This document shows positions 3,255 through 11,008 of a stretch of 33,435 nucleotides of DNA, one piece after another. The stretch is from Planifilum fulgidum. Its GTDB lineage: Bacteria > Bacillota > Bacilli > Thermoactinomycetales > DSM-44946. Made by a program: the position numbers and the translations under genes. A model generated the notes under the pieces. The model did no database searches. It was given only the letters and a program-made list of their open reading frames with translations, and was not told the origin of the DNA. The stretch's first letter is position 1, and each line of letters starts with the position of its first letter. The stretch is taken from the NCBI RefSeq assembly GCF_900113175.1, contig NZ_FOOK01000034.1:1-33435 (forward strand). Direction: 5' to 3'.

Positions 3255-3839
3255 TCACCGGTGTTTGGAAAAGCGGATGACCTTCCAATTTTTAATGAAA
3301 TAATCTACACCGGACCAGACCGTGATGATCACGGCGGCCCAGGTGATGATTCCCGCAAAGGGAAAGGCGAAGGACGAAAAGGGAAAATTGTTGATCATCA
3401 GGGCGACGATGGCGACGATTTGGACGATCGTCTTCAGCTTTCCCCAGGGGCTGGCGGCAATCACCTGGCCCTCGGCGGCGGCGATCATGCGCAGTCCGGT
3501 TACCGCAAACTCCCGGCTGATGATCACAATCGCCACCCATGCATCCAACCGCTGCATCTCCACCAGCGAAATCAGCGCTGCGGAAATCAGCAACTTGTCC
3601 GCCAGGGGATCCAGCAGTTTCCCCAAATTGGTCACGAGCTTCCGTTTCCGGGCGATATATCCGTCCAGCCCGTCCGTGACGGCGGCCAGAATGAAGATCA
3701 GGGCGGCGATGATCTCGCTGACGGTGATCACCCCTTGCCCGAACTGAAACTGGCCGAGATTGAACCGGACCAGAAGGAAAAACATCACCACCGGAACCAG
3801 AAAAATGCGGGCCAGCGTGATCTTGTTGGGCAGATTCAC
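3255..3839 (-). CDS. pgsA: CDP-diacylglycerol--glycerol-3-phosphate 3-phosphatidyltransferase
   Basis: An integral membrane enzyme of 194 residues that makes phosphatidylglycerol phosphate from CDP-diacylglycerol and glycerol-3-phosphate, the committed step to phosphatidylglycerol and cardiolipin. The CDP-alcohol phosphotransferase signature is complete: DGLDGYIAR, then GKLLDPLADK, giving DxxDGxxAR...GxxxDxxxD. Several hydrophobic segments are visible (about 6-26, 33-54, 82-102, 125-175). The frame is open upstream, but the start is placed at GTG 3839 (VNLPNKITLARIFL) because GGAGGTT lies nine bases before it and the family begins this way. The start falls two bases before the rimO stop at 3841, which points to translational coupling. 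Confidence 0.94.
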   Translation of the reverse strand: MNLPNKITLARIFLVPVVMFFLLVRFNLGQFQFGQGVITVSEIIAALIFILAAVTDGLDGYIARKRKLVTNLGKLLDPLADKLLISAALISLVEMQRLDAWVAIVIISREFAVTGLRMIAAAEGQVIAASPWGKLKTIVQIVAIVALMINNFPFSSFAFPFAGIITWAAVIITVWSGVDYFIKNWKVIRFSKHR

Positions 3840-3840
3840 G

Positions 3841-5166
3841 TCAGAGAACCTCCCCCGCGAGGTCGAATTCGAATGAATGGGTGATCCGGGCGCGAACCAC
3901 TTCGCCGATGGGCAACCCTTGACCGCGGACAAACACCTCGCCGTCGATCTCCGGGGCGTCATACTGGGTGCGTCCCAAATAAACATCGTTCCGCCCATCG
4001 TAGGATTCGATCAACACTTCCAAATCCCGTCCGACATGCCGCTGATTCCGCCGGCTTGAAATCCGGCGCTGCAATTCCATCAGCCGGTGGGCCCGCTCCT
4101 CCTTGACCTCCTCCGGAACGTGGTCGGGCAGCCGGGATGCGGGCGTTCCTTCTTCGTTGGAATAGGTGAAGACCCCCAAACGATCGAACTCCACCTGCCG
4201 CACGAATCGGAGCAGGTTCTCAAAATCCTCCTCCGTCTCACCGGGGAACCCAACGATGATCGAAGTGCGGATCGCCACATCCGAAATGCGGGCGCGAATT
4301 TGCTCGATCAAAGACAGGATGTCGCGCTGCCTGCCCGGACGGCGCATGCGCCTGAGAATGCGATCTTCGCTGTGCTGCAGGGGCATATCGATGTACTTGC
4401 AGATTTTCGGGTTGGAAGCGATCGTCTCCAGAAGCTCTTCGTTGAAAGCACCCGGATAGAGATAATGAAGGCGAACCCAGCGTATCCCTTCCACTTCGGA
4501 AACGCGGTTCAGAAGGGAGGCGAGGGCCGGAGATCCATACAGATCCACTCCGTAGTTGCTGGTGTCCTGAGCGATCAGGATCACCTCCCGCACCCCCTCC
4601 GCAGCCAACTGCTCCACCTCGCGCACAATGCTTTCGATGCTTCGGCTGCGAAACGCTCCGCGCATGATGGGGATACTGCAAAAAGTGCAGGCGTTGTCAC
4701 ACCCCTCGGCAATTTTGACATGGGCAAAATGGCGGGGAGTCAACCGCTTTCGCGGGAGAGCCCGTTCATACGAAAAAACGGGGTTGCCTACAAACACCGG
4801 CCGTCGACCCGAAACGGATTGGGCAATCACCTCCGCGATCCTGGCAAAATCGCCCGTCCCCACGATTCCGTCAATCTCCGGAATCTCCCTCATCAGTTCC
4901 TCTTTATAGCGCTGGACCAAACACCCGGAAACGATCAAACATTTCACCCGTCCCGTTTCCTTCAGCGCCGCCAAATCCAAAATGGTGTTTATCGATTCTT
5001 CCTTGGCGGCATCGATGAATCCGCATGTATTCACAATCACGACGGTGGCGTCGTTCGGATCTTCCACCAGCTCGTGGCCTTGCTGATCGATCAGTCCCGA
5101 CATGATTTCAGAATCCACGAGATTCTTTTCGCATCCCAACGTGACAATCGCAACTTTTTCCGGCAT
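3841..5166 (-). CDS. rimO: Ribosomal protein S12 methylthiotransferase RimO
   Basis: A 441-residue radical-SAM methylthiotransferase that adds a methylthio group to the conserved aspartate of ribosomal protein S12. The N-terminal UPF0004 domain has three cluster-binding cysteines (Cys12, Cys48, Cys82). The radical-SAM CxxxCxxC is CDNACTFC (Cys156, Cys160, Cys163). A TRAM domain fills about 375-441. RimO rather than MiaB is chosen from TLGCEKNLVDSE and NTCGFIDAAKEES. ATG follows GGAGGAAATGCG. It heads a rimO-pgsA-cinA-helicase unit with its own promoter. Confidence 0.95.
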   Translation of the reverse strand: MPEKVAIVTLGCEKNLVDSEIMSGLIDQQGHELVEDPNDATVVIVNTCGFIDAAKEESINTILDLAALKETGRVKCLIVSGCLVQRYKEELMREIPEIDGIVGTGDFARIAEVIAQSVSGRRPVFVGNPVFSYERALPRKRLTPRHFAHVKIAEGCDNACTFCSIPIMRGAFRSRSIESIVREVEQLAAEGVREVILIAQDTSNYGVDLYGSPALASLLNRVSEVEGIRWVRLHYLYPGAFNEELLETIASNPKICKYIDMPLQHSEDRILRRMRRPGRQRDILSLIEQIRARISDVAIRTSIIVGFPGETEEDFENLLRFVRQVEFDRLGVFTYSNEEGTPASRLPDHVPEEVKEERAHRLMELQRRISSRRNQRHVGRDLEVLIESYDGRNDVYLGRTQYDAPEIDGEVFVRGQGLPIGEVVRARITHSFEFDLAGEVL

Positions 5167-5246: not shown

Positions 5247-6149
5247 CTAGGTCGTCTTCTGCTTATCCTCATCCTTCTTCTCACCGGCCTTCTTGTCCAG
5301 CCGGAACTGGTATGTCTGAGCCTCTTTCTGCTCCTTCGTGTCCACCAGATATCCGTTGACCTTAAGTTCAATCTTGTCCGGCTTGCCCAGATGCAGGGAG
5401 ATCCATTCGGAGTGGGTGAAGGTTTCCGTTTGGCCCGCCTGAATGTAACCGTCCTTCATCACCGAACCGGTCGGCCCCCCTCCCCGTGCGCGAAACCAGC
5501 TTTCGGACGAAGCTTTGATGGTGATCACCACCTCGTCCGCATTGCCGATAACATATTCGTCGCCGTGTTTGTTCGACTCCGACGTCTTCACCAGCCGGAG
5601 CGACACGTCGCTTCCTTCCCCGGACATAGAAGCCGCCCGGGACGAACCGCTCTCCTCCGAAGGAGAAGCCTCCTCCGGCTCCTGCGACGCTTCCGCGGAA
5701 GCCGACTCGCCGCCTTCCGGAGCGCTCCCGGAGAAAACGAAAAAATAAAGCGTGGATAAAGCGCCCGACAGAAGAATCAGCAATATGACGCCAAACAATA
5801 ATGGCTTGGAGGAAATGACTTTCAATAGGGACGGTTTTCCGACTTTCGCCCGTTCTTTCCTCGCGTGCCGCTCCTTCCGGCTCGGCAGGGAGCGTTTGGA
5901 GGCCCCGGCGGTGATAATCTGTGATTTCTCCTCGAAATAGCGCAAAATCGGATCCGGAGAAACTCCGAGACACTGCGCGTAGGCGCGTATGATCGCCCGG
6001 GCATAGGAATGTCCGGGCAACGCGGAATAGTCTCCCTCTTCGATGGCCTTCAGATAGCGGGATTGCACGCGGATCTTTCGCTCAACATCCTCCAGGCTGA
6101 GACCGGCCGCTTCCCGCGCCCGCCTCAGCTCTTCCGCTGGATTGGACAT
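5247..6149 (-). CDS. RodZ-like HTH membrane protein, paralogue 1
   Basis: A 300-residue protein with the RodZ layout: a cytoplasmic HTH_25 domain (about 3-72, LRRAREAAGLSLEDVERKIR...YLKAIEEGDYSALPG), a short basic linker, one membrane segment (about 116-139) and an acidic Ser/Glu-rich stretch. It ends in an extracytoplasmic beta domain of the DUF4115 type (about 205-286, ending DKIELKVNGYLVD). RodZ links MreB filaments to the cell-wall elongation machinery. The start is ATG 6149, preceded by GGAGGTGTCAGTCC; an upstream in-frame extension has no SD. Its linker is the shortest of the four copies, and it is nearest rimO and pgsA. Whether this or paralogue 4 is the true RodZ cannot be decided by reading. 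Confidence 0.88.
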   Translation of the reverse strand: MSNPAEELRRAREAAGLSLEDVERKIRVQSRYLKAIEEGDYSALPGHSYARAIIRAYAQCLGVSPDPILRYFEEKSQIITAGASKRSLPSRKERHARKERAKVGKPSLLKVISSKPLLFGVILLILLSGALSTLYFFVFSGSAPEGGESASAEASQEPEEASPSEESGSSRAASMSGEGSDVSLRLVKTSESNKHGDEYVIGNADEVVITIKASSESWFRARGGGPTGSVMKDGYIQAGQTETFTHSEWISLHLGKPDKIELKVNGYLVDTKEQKEAQTYQFRLDKKAGEKKDEDKQKTT

Positions 6150-6216
6150 GGACTGACACCTCCCGACCTTGCGTCCCGTTCCCCACCGCAAGGCCCACGG
6201 GCCCTGAAAAACTCAC

Positions 6217-6267
6217 GGGGCAGGGAACTCGATGAAACGCCGTGGAAAGGGATGCGCACCCTGCCCC
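6217..6267 (-). terminator. Possible weak terminator between two rodZ-like genes
   Basis: GGGGCAGGG (6217-6225) is perfectly complementary to CCCTGCCCC (6259-6267). On the minus strand the stem is followed by GTGAGTTTTTC. The loop is 33 bases and the T-run starts five bases after the stem, so termination would be partial at best. No clear promoter was found in the remaining intergenic bases (6150-6282). Confidence 0.35.
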
Positions 6268-6282
6268 TGGATTCTCCGCTTT

Positions 6283-7617
6283 CTATTCGGACCGTTCGAT
6301 GCGGATCATCTTGGAAGCCTCGATGGGCTGTCCGTTCACCTTGATTTGTTTAATTGCCTGCGGCGCCCCAAACTCAATGTACAGATTGGAAGACCCGTCT
6401 GCCGGGTGCTGGTATTTATAGGTCTCGTTATTCCTAAGGGTCACATCCTTCAGATATTTTCCGCCTTCCGGTTGTTCGCGGATCTGCACCCAGCAAACAT
6501 CGGCGGCCGGTCCGATTTCCACCGACAGCTCGCCCGTGGCCGTGATTTGATAATGAGCCACTCCGCCGCTTTTCTCCACCAGCGACACCTCGGCCTCTTT
6601 TCCTTCGTCTTCAGGGGAATCGCTTTCCTGGGGAAGCGGCTCAGCGTTCACATTATCCGGATCGCTTTGTTCCGACGCCGAGCGCGTCTCCGCAGGCGGA
6701 TCATCCTTCAGGAAAGCATATGCCCCCCAGGCCGCGGCGGGAATCAACAGGGCAATCCCTGCGACCATGCCGATCCGGCGGATTTTCCGGCTGGTTTCTC
6801 CTTCCTGGGCTCTCTCCGAACGGCGGGAACGGGAGGATCGCTCCATCGAATAACGGTACGGGGATTCCCGCTCCTCGTCGGGCGAATCGGTGTCCCCCGA
6901 AACGTACCCGGCTCCCGATCCCCTCTTCAATTCCAGGCGCATGGTCCGCTCCGCGGATCTGTCCGCTCCCTCCCGCGCCTCACCGGCCGCATCGGGCTCT
7001 CCCCGGGATGACAGGCGGGAAAACTTTGATGTGCGGGAAAGATCCTGTATCGCCCTTTGCCGACCCGTGTCCCGGCTTTTTGTCGGATCGCCGGAAACCC
7101 GATCCGTGTCGGAAAAAAACTCCCTCCGGGAGGGAGATCCGTAGGAATCCGCATCTCCGGGGGAATGCCCGGTTCCCGGTTTCGCGTTGGTCCTCTGCGA
7201 CAGCGATTCCATGCGCATGGTCCGCTGCGTGAAACTCCGGCTCCCCCCCTCCCCTTCAAGGGCGTCGCCAGACTCTCCGCGGGGGGAGATGCGGGGATGC
7301 GTCGACGTGAAGCGGGATCGATCCTGAACCGCCTTCTGGCGATCCGTGTTCCGTTTTTTCACCGCGTCCTGAGATCCGGACTCACCAGGAATCGGGCGAT
7401 ATTTTTTCAGCAAGTGATGCGGTTCGATACCGACGCACTTGGCATATTGGCGTATGCAAGTGCGCACGAAATAGGGGCTCGGCAATTTGTCGAATTCCCC
7501 GTTTTCAAGGGCCATCAAATATCCGATTTCAATGCGGGTTTTATCCCGAATATCCTGTATGCTAAGACCCAGCGATTCTCTCGCTTCCTTCAGCCGGAGA
7601 CCGATCTCGAGAGACAC
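6283..7617 (-). CDS. RodZ-like HTH membrane protein, paralogue 2 with duplicated linker
   Basis: A 444-residue RodZ-type protein. The HTH domain covers about 3-75 (EIGLRLKEARESLGLSIQDI...FDKLPSPYFVRTCIRQYAKCVG). A very long polar linker (about 76-280) contains two copies of a roughly 65-residue unit: about 90-158 (starting NTDRQKAVQD) and 183-245 (starting DTGRQRAIQD). Each copy includes RGE and RTMR motifs and ends G-D-x-D-S. One membrane segment (about 281-304) is followed by an acidic spacer and a DUF4115-like beta domain (about 360-440). GTG 7617 is the chosen start, with GGAGGT seven bases upstream; the longer frame has no SD. It has its own promoter at 7677-7706. Function beyond RodZ similarity is unknown. 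Confidence 0.87.
   Translation of the reverse strand: MSLEIGLRLKEARESLGLSIQDIRDKTRIEIGYLMALENGEFDKLPSPYFVRTCIRQYAKCVGIEPHHLLKKYRPIPGESGSQDAVKKRNTDRQKAVQDRSRFTSTHPRISPRGESGDALEGEGGSRSFTQRTMRMESLSQRTNAKPGTGHSPGDADSYGSPSRREFFSDTDRVSGDPTKSRDTGRQRAIQDLSRTSKFSRLSSRGEPDAAGEAREGADRSAERTMRLELKRGSGAGYVSGDTDSPDEERESPYRYSMERSSRSRRSERAQEGETSRKIRRIGMVAGIALLIPAAAWGAYAFLKDDPPAETRSASEQSDPDNVNAEPLPQESDSPEDEGKEAEVSLVEKSGGVAHYQITATGELSVEIGPAADVCWVQIREQPEGGKYLKDVTLRNNETYKYQHPADGSSNLYIEFGAPQAIKQIKVNGQPIEASKMIRIERSE
6883..7350 (-). repeat. Degenerate tandem duplication inside rodZ-like paralogue 2
   Basis: Two imperfect units encode similar linker peptides: 7144-7350 (NTDRQKAVQD...RGESGDA...RTMRMES...GDADS) and 6883-7071 (DTGRQRAIQD...RGEPDAA...RTMRLEL...GDTDS). 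The copies have diverged but align without large gaps. The likely origin is an in-frame duplication within the linker. Confidence 0.7.
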
Positions 7618-7676
7618 CCGGCACACCTCCCATGGATTGAGCCACCCCAACAAATCGCTCGTCTCTTTCCTGTTTG

Positions 7677-7706
7677 AGTATAACCTGCTGCGATCCCCAA
7701 TGTCAA
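7677..7706 (-). promoter_or_regulatory. Sigma-A-type promoter for rodZ-like paralogue 2
   Basis: On the minus strand TTGACA (7701-7706) and TATACT (7677-7682) are spaced 18 bases apart, with the gene start about 60 bases downstream. The boxes are the same hexamers at the same spacing as the rimO promoter. Confidence 0.75.
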
Positions 7707-7730
7707 AGAGCCCCCTGGATCGGGAGCTCA
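7706..7730 (-). terminator. Short terminator after rodZ-like paralogue 3
   Basis: On the minus strand GAGCTCCC and GGGGGCTC form a stem (one T-G wobble) followed by TTTG. It overlaps the stop codon of paralogue 3 and abuts the -35 box of the next gene, a compact terminator-promoter junction. The T-run is short. Confidence 0.4.
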
Positions 7731-8951
7731 TTTCACCAAACGGATGTGAACCACTTTTTGTTTCTTATATTCGCCCACTTTTTTTCCGTTGACCGAGATT
7801 TTCACATTCTTGGAGGGTTTCAGCTCGACCCACAAGTCCTCTTTGTCGGACTCGTAGGCAAAGGGAGGAGAACCGGGTTTGATGGTGACCTCTTTCAGCT
7901 TCTTGCCCACTTCCTCCTCTCGGATCTCGACCCCGCACTCGCCCTCCGCATCGATTTTCAGCTCAATCTTGTCCGCTTGGGTCAGTTCAAAATGATCGGG
8001 ACCGTTTTTGCTGGTTTCCGTGGGATATAAGATGGGCTCCTTCTTGCCCGCCTCCGAACCGTCGGCCGATACCTCGGTGCGGTCCCCGGCACTGATGGGT
8101 TTCTCTTCTTCTCCCCAGATCAAAATGCCGACGGCCAGAGCGGCAGGAATCAGAAGAACCGTGCCGGCGATGAGAAAGCGGTTATACCATTTGGCGAAGG
8201 TTCCTTCCTTTTCCTTCGACGCCGCCTTTCGGCGCCGGGAGAGGTGGGGAACCACTTCGGCCTGTCCGCTGCTTTCATCCACCACCGCGGGCGGCAAGGC
8301 GCGCTTTTCAACCGGTTCGGTCGAACGGGGATGCCCGGTCTCACCGCGCAACAGCGCATCCTTGGACCTCGAAAAGCTTCTTGAAGTTCTTGTCAGGTGC
8401 GAAGAAGGCTGGGCCGAGGGAGGATTGGCGGGAAACGATTCGGCGCCGGGAAAACTTTCCCGGGAAGCGCCCTCCCAGCCCTGCGTCCGTCCGTTTGAAA
8501 AGGAGGACCGGGAAGAGATGTTTTCCGGCCGCTTCGGTTCATGGGGAGGGGACGCCTTCTCCCATCCCCTCGCTGCCCCCCTTCTCGCCCGGTCAGGATG
8601 ATGCCGTTCCTCCCTTTCCGGCAAGGGCCATTGGCGATATCCCCTCGTATCCATCGAAGGTCGCCGCGGCTCCCGATCCCAACCGCGGGAGAAGGGGCGC
8701 TCCGCCTTTTCCTGCTCCGACGCCTGTTCCCGGTATTCCCGCAAGATGGCCGATGCGTCCAACCCGAGGAAATGGGCATAAGTGCGCAGATAGGAGCGGG
8801 CGTAAAATGGGCTGGGAAGGGCGTCGAACTGTCCCTGCTCCATCGCCAGCACATACTCTTTCCTGATTCGAATGCGATCCGCCACCTCATCCACGGTCAG
8901 GCCGCGGGCCTCTCTGGCCCGTCTGAGCCGGTATCCGATATCCTCCGACAC
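7728..8951 (-). CDS. RodZ-like HTH membrane protein, paralogue 3
   Basis: A 407-residue RodZ-type protein. The HTH domain is at about 3-77 (IGYRLRRAREARGLTVDEVADRIRIR...QFDALPSPFYARSYLRTYAHFLG). A long Arg/Pro/Ser-rich disordered linker (about 80-250) is followed by one membrane segment (about 259-280) and a C-terminal DUF4115-like beta domain (about 325-407, including KISVNGKKV). GTG 8951 is the start, with GGAGGT seven bases upstream; the GTG three codons earlier overlaps that SD. The gap to paralogue 4 is only 36 bases with no promoter, so the two are probably co-transcribed from the ymfK side. The similar domain order and conserved SPFYxR segment show recent paralogy with copies 2 and 4. 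Confidence 0.88.
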   Translation of the reverse strand: MSEDIGYRLRRAREARGLTVDEVADRIRIRKEYVLAMEQGQFDALPSPFYARSYLRTYAHFLGLDASAILREYREQASEQEKAERPFSRGWDREPRRPSMDTRGYRQWPLPEREERHHPDRARRGAARGWEKASPPHEPKRPENISSRSSFSNGRTQGWEGASRESFPGAESFPANPPSAQPSSHLTRTSRSFSRSKDALLRGETGHPRSTEPVEKRALPPAVVDESSGQAEVVPHLSRRRKAASKEKEGTFAKWYNRFLIAGTVLLIPAALAVGILIWGEEEKPISAGDRTEVSADGSEAGKKEPILYPTETSKNGPDHFELTQADKIELKIDAEGECGVEIREEEVGKKLKEVTIKPGSPPFAYESDKEDLWVELKPSKNVKISVNGKKVGEYKKQKVVHIRLVK

Positions 8952-8987
8952 CCAGCCCACCTCCCGAAATGCTGTTCCATCCGATGA

Positions 8988-10133
8988 TTACTTTTTCAGC
9001 TGAATGCGATAACTTTTCGCCACATCCTGGGCGGTCGTATCGATCTCCACGCCGTTTACCCGAATCTGCACCGCAGAGGGAACCGTCAGCCGGAACCACA
9101 AGAATTTGTCCTTTTTCACCGTCCGGGCGTCTCCCAGTTTCATCGTGTAGGTCTCTTCGGGTTCGTCGGGTTTTTCCCCGTAGAGGAACACGCTCTCCCC
9201 TTGGGTCGCTTTCACCTCAAGGACAATCTCGTTGGCTTTGGTCAACTCATAGAGATCGCCGGGAAACCCGGAATCCACTTCCTTGAGAACCAGCTCAGGC
9301 GCGTTCGTCTGCTGTGCGGCAGCCGTTCCGTTGCCCGTCTGCCCGTCGTCGGGATTGAATTGCTCCCGGGGAACATTGGAGGAAGCGTTCATATGCTGAG
9401 TCCAGTACCAGGCTCCCGAACCCAGGAGAAGGACGCCGAGGGCGGCCACACCCATCCAGATCCCGCCCCGTTTTTTCCCTTTGGCCTCCTGCGGCGGAAT
9501 CGGAGGTCTGCTGGGCCTTTTCTGCGGCGGAAGTGCTTGTCCCTCCGCCTTGACGATCGGATACGCTCCGCTCCGGAAACGCCCAGTCTGCTGGGAGACG
9601 GCAGAGGACCGGGAAGAGACGGAAGGGCGCGTCTCCTCGCGCACTGCCCGTTCCCGACCGGTGACCGCATCCATCTGCACCGTATGAAAATGTCCGGTGT
9701 CCTGAGGCGGACGGTAAGAAACCGTGTGCTGGGACGGGCCCGCGGGACCCGACTGCTGGCTCGAATGCTCGGACGGGGCCGCTCCATGGGGATTCGGCCG
9801 GGATGCATTCGTGGAAACGGTCCGGAATCGGCCGGTGTTGCTCCGCAATCCACCGCCCGGCTCCGGGCGGACCCTCCGAAACCGCGCCGTCGGGTGGGCT
9901 CCCCCTTGATTGAGACGTTCATAGCGTTCCAGAAGGACCTGGGGGTCCATCCCCAGGCACCGCGCATACGTTCGGAGAAAGGCGCGCACGTAAAAGGGGC
10001 TCGGCAGCGAATCGAACTGGTCATTTTCCAAGGCATGAAGGTACTCCGCATGGATTTTCGTCTGCTGTTGCACGTCCTCCAACGACAACCCCAACGCTTC
10101 TCTCGCCCGCCTCAACTGAGTTCCGATCTCCAT
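8988..10133 (-). CDS. RodZ-like HTH membrane protein, paralogue 4 (best positional rodZ/ymfM match)
   Basis: A 381-residue RodZ-type protein directly after ymfK, the position of rodZ (ymfM) in Bacillus. The HTH domain spans 1-72 (EIGTQLRRAREALGLSLEDV...FDSLPSPFYVRAFLRTYARCLG). The linker (about 76-222) carries five variants of a short motif: TARFRRV (82), TGRFRTV (100), TGHFHTV (146), TGRERAV (158) and TGRFRSG (183). One membrane segment (about 224-244) leads to a DUF4115-like domain (about 290-381). ATG 10133 follows AGGAGTGGGAATT. RodZ normally anchors MreB via the HTH domain. The long linker is unusual compared with the roughly 300-residue Bacillus protein. Confidence 0.89.
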   Translation of the reverse strand: MEIGTQLRRAREALGLSLEDVQQQTKIHAEYLHALENDQFDSLPSPFYVRAFLRTYARCLGMDPQVLLERYERLNQGGAHPTARFRRVRPEPGGGLRSNTGRFRTVSTNASRPNPHGAAPSEHSSQQSGPAGPSQHTVSYRPPQDTGHFHTVQMDAVTGRERAVREETRPSVSSRSSAVSQQTGRFRSGAYPIVKAEGQALPPQKRPSRPPIPPQEAKGKKRGGIWMGVAALGVLLLGSGAWYWTQHMNASSNVPREQFNPDDGQTGNGTAAAQQTNAPELVLKEVDSGFPGDLYELTKANEIVLEVKATQGESVFLYGEKPDEPEETYTMKLGDARTVKKDKFLWFRLTVPSAVQIRVNGVEIDTTAQDVAKSYRIQLKK

Positions 10134-10172
10134 AATTCCCACTCCTCGTCTCTCCCCGATTTTGAACCTGCG

Positions 10173-10937
10173 TCAAAAAGCCGCAAAATCGGAATCCAGC
10201 ACGTCGTAATCGATTTTTTCCTCAGGGTGATTTCTGAGTTCGATGATCACGTCGAAATCCTCCAGTGTGTACTCGGTCTCGCGGATGAAGATGTCCGGAT
10301 GTTCGATCACCTTTGTGGCATCCATTTGCAGGATTTCGCGCACCAGCGCATGGTGACGTTCCGTCGAACGGAGCGTGGAAACGATCCCGTCGATGATGAA
10401 CACGTTGTCGGGACTCATCTCATCCTCCGCCAGTTGACTGCGCACCGTCTGGCGGAGCAGGGTGGACGAGACAAAGGTCCACCGCTTGTTTGCGCAAACG
10501 CTGGAGGCCACGATCGATTCCGTTTTCCCGACCCTCGGCATTCCCCGCACGCCGATGAGCTGGTGTCCTTCCCTCTTCATCAATTCCGCCATGAAATCCA
10601 CAAGCAGCCCCAGCTCGTCCCGCGTGAAGCGGAAAGTCCGCTTGTCCTCCAGGCATTGGTCCAGGTATCGGCCGTGGCGAACCGCCATGCGGTCCAACAA
10701 CGTGGGAGGGCGAAGCGCGGTGATGGTGATATTGTCAACCCGGTTCAGGATGTGTTTGAGGGCGTGAATTTTTTCCCTGTCGTCGGTTTTGAGCAACATC
10801 CCGCGCCGCCGGTCCTCGACTCCGTTGATGGTCAAGATGTTGATGGACAGCATCCCGAGGAGGGAAGCGATATCCCCCAATAGCCCCGGGCGGTTTTTAT
10901 GTATGTGATATTCAAGATACCACATATTATCTATCAT
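10173..10937 (-). CDS. ymfK: YmfK-like DUF3388 protein (ACT domain plus P-loop-like motif)
   Basis: A 254-residue cytoplasmic protein of unknown function, conserved upstream of rodZ in Bacillales. The N-terminus (about 5-77) looks like an ACT domain: YHIHKNRPGLLGDIASLLGM and ILTINGVEDRRRG. A Walker-A-like GVRGMPRVGKTES lies at 129-141 and a possible Walker B, NVFIIDG, at 178-184. The ATG at 10937 follows AAAGGTG at good spacing; the in-frame GTG three codons earlier overlaps that SD. It has its own promoter and leads into rodZ-like paralogue 4 after a 39-base gap, so it heads the ymfK-rodZ4-rodZ3 unit. Confidence 0.88.
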   Translation of the reverse strand: MIDNMWYLEYHIHKNRPGLLGDIASLLGMLSINILTINGVEDRRRGMLLKTDDREKIHALKHILNRVDNITITALRPPTLLDRMAVRHGRYLDQCLEDKRTFRFTRDELGLLVDFMAELMKREGHQLIGVRGMPRVGKTESIVASSVCANKRWTFVSSTLLRQTVRSQLAEDEMSPDNVFIIDGIVSTLRSTERHHALVREILQMDATKVIEHPDIFIRETEYTLEDFDVIIELRNHPEEKIDYDVLDSDFAAF

Positions 10938-11008
10938 TCGAGACACCTTTCGTCAAATCCTGTCAAATATTCAGTCGAATTGCCAAATATCCCGCTAATT
11001 CGCTATAT

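Follow-up and report, generated by a model that had tools for sequence, protein, structure and literature searches.

The window analysed here is a 33,435-nucleotide stretch of Planifilum fulgidum DNA (assembly GCF_900113175.1, contig NZ_FOOK01000034.1, positions 1 to 33,435). It contains four consecutive RodZ-like genes, all on the minus strand, in a cluster that spans positions 5247-10133. RodZ has been studied mainly as the membrane anchor of MreB. We name the paralogues A to D in the order of transcription; a first-pass annotation of the same DNA, which had already recognised four consecutive RodZ-like genes, counted from the opposite end, so that its short-linker copy 1 is D here. The helix-turn-helix (HTH), transmembrane (TM) and extracellular parts of the proteins, with lengths in amino acids (aa), are as follows.

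8988..10133, minus strand: RodZ paralogue A, 381 aa, ATG at 10133; HTH_25, 151-aa linker, TM helix, RodZ_C-type ectodomain
7728..8951, minus strand: RodZ paralogue B, 407 aa; HTH_25, 185-aa linker, TM helix, RodZ_C-type ectodomain
6283..7617, minus strand: RodZ paralogue C, 444 aa; HTH_25, 211-aa linker, TM helix, RodZ_C ectodomain
5247..6149, minus strand: RodZ paralogue D, 300 aa, last in the cluster; HTH_25, 47-aa linker, TM helix, RodZ_C

Gene starts were picked by eye from the Shine-Dalgarno match and the position of the HTH. For A, an alternative GTG start at 10142 would give 384 aa. For C, we chose the GTG at 7617, which directly adjoins the HTH and comes with a Shine-Dalgarno-like GGAGG, while an ATG-started open reading frame extends to 7731.

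The four proteins share the layout of RodZ. The N-terminal HTH_25 domain, an Xre-type fold, scores 73.9-92.2 bits against a cut-off of 24.6 (E-values 1.8e-26, 6.4e-25, 9.1e-21 and 2.4e-22 for A, B, C and D), and all four proteins also match HTH_19/HTH_31. In each protein a single segment stands out as strongly hydrophobic (mean hydropathy 1.65-2.61, the second-best segment reaching at most 0.84), which predicts a single TM helix after the HTH and the polar linker. The tail after this helix is 140, 129, 141 and 161 aa long in A to D, and it ends in every case in an [IL]xVNG strand (RVNG in A, SVNG in B, KVNG in C and D). The RodZ_C (DUF4115) Pfam cut-off of 23.9 bits is exceeded by D (43.8) and C (25.1) and missed by A (14.4) and B (13.2). 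In profile-profile comparison with D, however, the ectodomains of A, B and C match with probabilities of 99.1, 98.8 and 97.3%, and at E<=0.1 all 13 family ectodomains of A and 10 of the 12 of B give a RodZ_C match. Because these family-level profiles match, though the single sequences fall short of the Pfam cut-off, we consider the ectodomains of A and B to be of the RodZ_C type; the matches to D rule out that A and B are not RodZ proteins. For the ectodomains of A and C, AlphaFold predicts a beta domain (mean pLDDT 75.5 and 78.4). The best NCBIfam match of all four proteins is a streptococcal RodZ model, through the HTH alone in A-C and under the curated cut-off in all. Thus, the common layout, the KVNG-like terminal strand and the divergence in linker length (47 aa in D versus 151-211 aa in A-C) that the first-pass annotation had described are borne out by Pfam, hydropathy and profile-profile comparison, and the long-linker copies carry a RodZ C-terminal domain, C by its single-sequence score and A and B as families. 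By eye, the C linker also seems to hold an internal direct duplication (TDRQKAVQD...RTMRMES / TGRQRAIQD...RTMRLEL, at about 7351-7190 and 7071-6900, minus strand).

The cluster occupies the ordinary rodZ (ymfM) locus, between the gene for a DUF3388 protein (ymfK) and pgsA, with these neighbours:

10173..10946, minus strand: DUF3388 protein (YmfK-like), upstream of the cluster
3841..5166, minus strand: RimO-like radical SAM protein, downstream of the cluster
3255..3845, minus strand: PgsA-like CDP-alcohol phosphatidyltransferase

We take the corresponding order in Bacillus subtilis to be ymfK-ymfL-ymfM-pgsA. RodZ/YmfM of B. subtilis thus has the same domain order and the same chromosomal place as the cluster, and a short linker like that of D; the window differs in having four copies instead of one, linkers of 151-211 aa in A-C, and no MreB partner that we could find. 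In our survey of the order, all 42 genomes have DUF3388 next to the cluster and 40 have pgsA there, the contigs of the other two (G023 and G041) ending first, with no pgsA before the end. The intervening rimO is seen in the genus of P. fulgidum only, with no RimO match in the stretches examined from other families.

The survey comprised 42 genomes of the order, assigned to six families (f1 to f6) and searched strictly for HTH_25 (E<=1e-9). G000 denotes the window's own genome and G001 its sister in the same genus (f1); the other named relatives are Kroppenstedtia guangzhouensis (G006), Marininema halotolerans (G008), Marinithermofilum abyssi (G009), Melghirimyces (G010 and G011), Paludifilum halophilum (G012), Hazenella coriacea (G022), Laceyella (G024 and G025), Lihuaxuella thermophila (G026), Paenactinomyces guangxiensis (G027), Polycladospora coralii (G029) and Thermoactinomyces (G036 and G037), and G002 is a metagenome-assembled genome of Bacillota. 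The eleven named genera among these relatives all belong to Thermoactinomycetaceae, and their bacteria grow as hyphae. Two to five strong HTH_25 genes were present in 40 of the 42 genomes (two in five genomes, one of them 67% complete; three in five; four in twenty-six; five in four), and both f5 genomes have one. In a wider sample of 398 Bacilli, with up to 15 candidates scored per genome, 350 of the 360 genomes from outside the order have one HTH_25 gene, five have two, five have none and not one has three. The expansion of RodZ is therefore specific to one order, neither universal in Bacilli nor private to this genome. The first-pass annotation was thus right to see an expansion where a single copy is usual, and the idea that four copies are universal in Bacilli is rejected by the 350 single-copy genomes.

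A gene tree built from the HTH and the ectodomain resolves four orthologue groups, A to D, each broadly tracking the species, and places the single f5 copy among the outgroup RodZ proteins. Since the groups follow the species, the duplications are older than the divergence of families f1-f4 and f6. By HTH identity, f5 RodZ is narrowly nearest D (50 and 47%, versus 47 and 46% to A). The species tree was made from five neighbouring proteins and rooted on one outgroup; G002, whose DUF3388 was confirmed, was left out of it, and its A copy enters no count. Copies that lack an ectodomain were assigned to groups by their position and the similarity of their HTH, with a narrow margin for several B copies, and copy 2 of G032 is slightly nearer C. 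In f2, five sampled genomes (G003, G004, G005, G009 and G010) have a C-type gene outside the cluster (L087-L092), six such outlying HTH_25 genes having been retrieved from these five. Two of the C-type genes lie in G010. Strong HTH_25 genes away from the cluster likewise number two in each of G004, G009 and G011, and not all of these are in the tree.

No MreB was found by the MreB_Mbl search in the window's genome, which is 99.99% complete, nor in its sister G001. A loose search of the window's genome returned only weaker matches in frames of 666 and 436 aa, presumably DnaK and FtsA judging by size. MreC, MreD and RodA, the other parts of a Rod complex, were not found in this genome by profile searches either. 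Across the order, 24 of 42 genomes have a single MreB match (E<=1e-30), all of them among the 40 genomes with a completeness of 90% or more. MreC occurs in the same 24, with one additional sub-cut-off match in G041, and MreD also in the same 24; as the MreD model is weak, matching in 5 of 14 control genomes, the absence of MreD leans on the closed RadC-MinC site described below. Each of the 24 MreB-positive genomes has three SEDS genes, and 16 of the 18 MreB-less genomes have two; the remaining two, G002 and G023, are 67-68% complete, one having a single SEDS gene and the other none. The extra SEDS protein of G014 is RodA according to NCBIfam (403 bits, cut-off 336.7), and the window's genome retains SpoVE and FtsW. 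In the single-RodZ genome G017, a SEDS gene is apparently broken in two pieces (G017:C1:1335964-1337024) with one TAG inside the match, giving four hits.

The gene order in G014 is RadC-MreB-MreC-MreD-MinC-MinD-like. In G000, G029 and G013, a MinC homologue directly follows RadC, i.e. the mreBCD site has closed up. The loose search, the MreB-less sister genome and the closed RadC-MinC site together reject an MreB hidden in the assembly. The 18 MreB-less genomes fall into about four lineages on the tree: f1, G013, G029 and a weakly supported group within f6. The copy number of DivIVA does not separate MreB-positive from MreB-less genomes. In most multi-RodZ genomes, the DivIVA match consists of two pieces in one longer frame of about 270-460 aa (G000:C36:26282-26779 and relatives), as if a linker had been inserted, and in both single-RodZ f5 genomes it runs uninterrupted over the full length.

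How the four copies fared without MreB can be followed at two aromatic residues. According to excerpts of PMC6946637, Y53 and Y57 of Thermotoga maritima RodZ (F60 and Y64 in Escherichia coli) are part of the interface with MreB, which binds less well when they are mutated. The HTH of D, the one copy searched, is homologous to RodZ of the T. maritima RodZ-MreB complex (PDB 2WUS) at E 1.9e-8. In the window, the residues at the Y53/Y57 sites are Y/F in A and Y/Y in B, which keep both aromatics, and F/C in C and Y/I in D, in a genome in which no MreB was found. Across the order, D has both aromatics in 19 of 24 MreB-positive genomes versus 0 of 17 MreB-less ones, a count that takes in the two f5 single copies (aromatics kept) and the two genomes whose D HTH is broken, and that uses 17 of the 18 MreB-less genomes because D of G023 is cut by a contig end. 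Eleven of these 17 have lost one or both aromatics, and four (G019-G021 and G031) have lost the whole HTH with the TM helix and ectodomain kept. In G028, D is strongly diverged, and in G029 none was seen, there being no frame longer than 60 aa in the 358-base gap. The D states of these last six genomes, and of G014 and G015, were read by eye. By contrast, MreB-less genomes keep the aromatics in 13 of 13 A, 17 of 17 B and 14 of 16 C copies, both C exceptions being in the window's own genus. In the MreB-positive relatives, A-D retain the contact aromatics in most cases. The A counts omit G009 (Marinithermofilum abyssi), where the HTH of A and its TM-ectodomain part lie in separate frames (L054 6663-7859), owing either to a real frameshift or to a sequencing error.

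All four copies are under purifying selection in this genus, D under the least strict. Between G000 and G001, both MreB-less, dN/dS in the HTH is 0.05, 0.06, 0.09 and 0.14 for A, B, C and D, and in the TM helix plus ectodomain 0.19, 0.12, 0.29 and 0.35. These values reject the possibility that the genes are pseudogenes. Purifying selection extends even to the D genes of G019-G021, which lack the HTH (dN/dS 0.23-0.28). It is therefore most improbable that the set is a mere relic of duplication, with redundant copies that have no separate roles: broken or truncated copies do exist (A of G009, D of G014 and G015, and A and B copies lacking the ectodomain), but the four orthologue groups have been kept across families and the own-genus dN/dS values are low. 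The proposal of the first-pass annotation that the four proteins are several membrane-anchored MreB adaptors fares little better and is very unlikely. It agrees with the single MreB of 24 of 42 relatives, in which the contact residues of A-D are mostly intact; in the window's genome, however, MreB, MreC, MreD and RodA are missing, the mreBCD site is closed in three lineages, and yet all four genes are under selection. Unless an MreB escaped the 99.99% complete assembly, MreB adaptors are thus refuted as an explanation of the expansion in this genome.

The ectodomain shows a different pattern of loss. In MreB-less genomes, it is lost from 6 of 13 A and 13 of 17 B copies, versus 0 of 21 A and 2 of 22 B copies in MreB-positive genomes, and C keeps it in 15 of 16 MreB-less and 18 of 18 MreB-positive copies. 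Almost all of this loss falls in one f6 group, with none in the window's genus, G013 or G029, so that it is confounded with ancestry and is not a general result of the loss of MreB. We have rejected it as a direct consequence of that loss, since it is absent from three of the about four MreB-less lineages.

Based on these data, we suggest, with moderate confidence in the explanation as a whole, that the locus is an old, vertically inherited A-B-C-D set at the ordinary rodZ place, in which D is the old MreB-adaptor RodZ and A-C are an old set of MreB-independent RodZ paralogues. Judged by its sequence, D looks like a former MreB partner: in each lineage that dropped MreB, its contact face would have changed, its HTH would have been lost, or the gene would have gone altogether, while A, B and C would work without MreB.

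Several observations weigh against this explanation. The Fisher value for the association of the D aromatics with MreB, 3.2e-7 from counts entered by hand, ignores shared descent, and a fair count is that D changed along with every one of the about four MreB losses, but was also damaged about four times in MreB-positive lineages. Five of the 24 MreB-positive genomes have a damaged D (G008, G011 and G035, and G014 and G015 with apparent frameshifts in the HTH). In the window's own genus, the HTH of D is sound (82.6 bits) and under selection, with one of two aromatics lost, and C has likewise lost one (F/C). D is also the fastest-evolving copy even where MreB is present: mean HTH identity among seven MreB-positive f6 genera is 92.6% for C, 74.0% for A, 65.9% for B and 47.9% for D. 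It is lower in every copy in the MreB-less f6 genera (77.5, 49.3, 45.7 and 33.8%, respectively), and part of the decay of D may thus reflect faster evolution overall. The species tree has limits as well, the other five outgroups not grouping with the root outgroup and the MreB-less f6 group being weakly supported, and a foldseek search of the A and C ectodomain models against PDB gave zero matches at E<=0.001, the lower-ranked ones being disregarded. As a separate observation, in the two frameshifted D genes (G014, L059 3426-4217; G015, L060 3222-3863) the TM helix and ectodomain are still open, with a dN/dS of 0.22 between them.

What, then, might A-C do? As these copies mostly keep the aromatic face without MreB, the face probably binds something else, either each other or a divisome protein. 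In excerpts of PMC6946637, the HTH of E. coli RodZ is described as binding itself. We propose that A-C are bitopic scaffold proteins whose HTH domains would bind each other or another cytoplasmic partner via the same aromatic face, with FtsA-based or septal machinery as candidates. The disordered linkers may carry short motifs, and the extracellular RodZ_C domains may touch the wall enzymes that the remaining SEDS proteins, FtsW and SpoVE, would drive. The process served could be hyphal septation, growth or sporulation. In other words, A-C probably function as a membrane scaffold for divisome-type wall synthesis. That some A and B copies shed only the ectodomain and some D copies only the HTH suggests a hetero-oligomer in which not every module is needed in each subunit.

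The linkers bear on this proposal. C linkers range from 113 to 377 aa across the order and D linkers from 33 to 87 aa. Recurring motifs in C linkers (TALTI in 8 and LSRSA in 9 of 21 sequences, shuffle maximum 5) agree with a linker that has partners of its own. Two points count on the other side: A and B linkers exceed their shuffles too (7 vs 4 and 10 vs 6), and the shuffles ignore shared descent, which alone can yield recurring motifs.

The length of the C linker, together with the Xre-type fold and the HTH_19/HTH_31 matches, also fits a different function, in which A-C, and above all C, would be membrane-tethered DNA-binding regulators whose HTH reaches DNA on the long linker while the ectodomain senses the state of the wall. 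The very high conservation of the C HTH in the seven MreB-positive f6 genera, and its mean net charge of +2.8 versus -1.2 for 20 outgroup RodZ proteins, point in the same direction. The mean HTH charges of A (-1.2) and B (+1.5) do not, however, nor does the retention of the aromatic protein-binding face in most A-C copies, and the HTH of E. coli RodZ reportedly binds MreB and itself, not DNA (excerpts of PMC6946637). We consider such regulators doubtful.

The set might also have a role mainly in sporulation. The RodZ paralogues would then serve asymmetric septation with SpoIIE and survive the loss of MreB in spore formers. Spore formers are found among the other Bacilli that have one RodZ, and the single copy in those sampled argues against this reading, even though the window's genome keeps SpoVE. 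In B. subtilis, RodZ interacts with SpoIIE and is required to form the asymmetric septum (excerpts of PMC4945075). This second role need not involve MreB, and it is among the reasons why we favour an MreB-independent scaffold. The promoter-like sites at the locus lend no support to the sporulation reading: the boxes upstream of C and D are of the sigma-70 type by consensus, in a scan that did not target sporulation-type promoters. On balance, we regard a mainly sporulation-related set as unlikely.

The scan of the locus found four promoter-like sites, versus a mean of 2.1 in shuffles, of which the two best are:

7706-7677, minus strand: promoter-like site TTGACA-18-TATACT, upstream of C and inside the cluster, 11/12 match
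5242-5213, minus strand: promoter-like site TTGACA-18-TATACT, upstream of rimO, 11/12 match

The other two match at 9/12, one within D and one on the plus strand. The at least three transcription starts of the first-pass annotation were not confirmed. Across the order, sites of at least 10/12 lie within 250 bp upstream of 14 of 28 C and 23 of 31 D copies; A (3 of 36, the two f5 single copies included) and B (0 of 39) represent background. The two near-identical boxes flank the C-D pair in the window, and 23 of 31 D copies in the order have such a box upstream of D instead.

Returning to the proposed scaffold, we speculate about a stronger form of it, which we put forward only tentatively: a RodZ-only morphogenetic system, in which three or four paralogues would form an obligate hetero-oligomeric TM scaffold that stands in for the MreB elongasome in endospore-forming Bacilli with hyphal growth and couples the FtsA/septal machinery to FtsW/SpoVE wall synthesis, its subunits being free to shed either module. 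A tie of the expansion to hyphal growth, as the first-pass annotation had suggested, is compatible with the data.

RodZ proteins without MreB have a precedent in MreB-less cocci such as Streptococcus and Staphylococcus, where RodZ is presumably single-copy. As described in excerpts of PMC6946637, these cocci likewise keep RodZ without MreB; they have MreC and MreD, however, which were not found in the window's genome. In the titles and abstract openings of the open-access papers searched, we found no account of a four-gene RodZ set that is fixed across an order and persists, its copies decaying differently, although MreB, MreC, MreD and RodA were lost repeatedly.

Thus, this order appears to have multiplied RodZ before several of its lineages dropped MreB, MreC, MreD and RodA, and in those lineages one copy loses its contact face and three mostly keep theirs. 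This amounts to a natural experiment that may separate an MreB-dependent from an MreB-independent role of RodZ. Because named species are available with either MreB state, the order would offer a way to learn what RodZ does without MreB.

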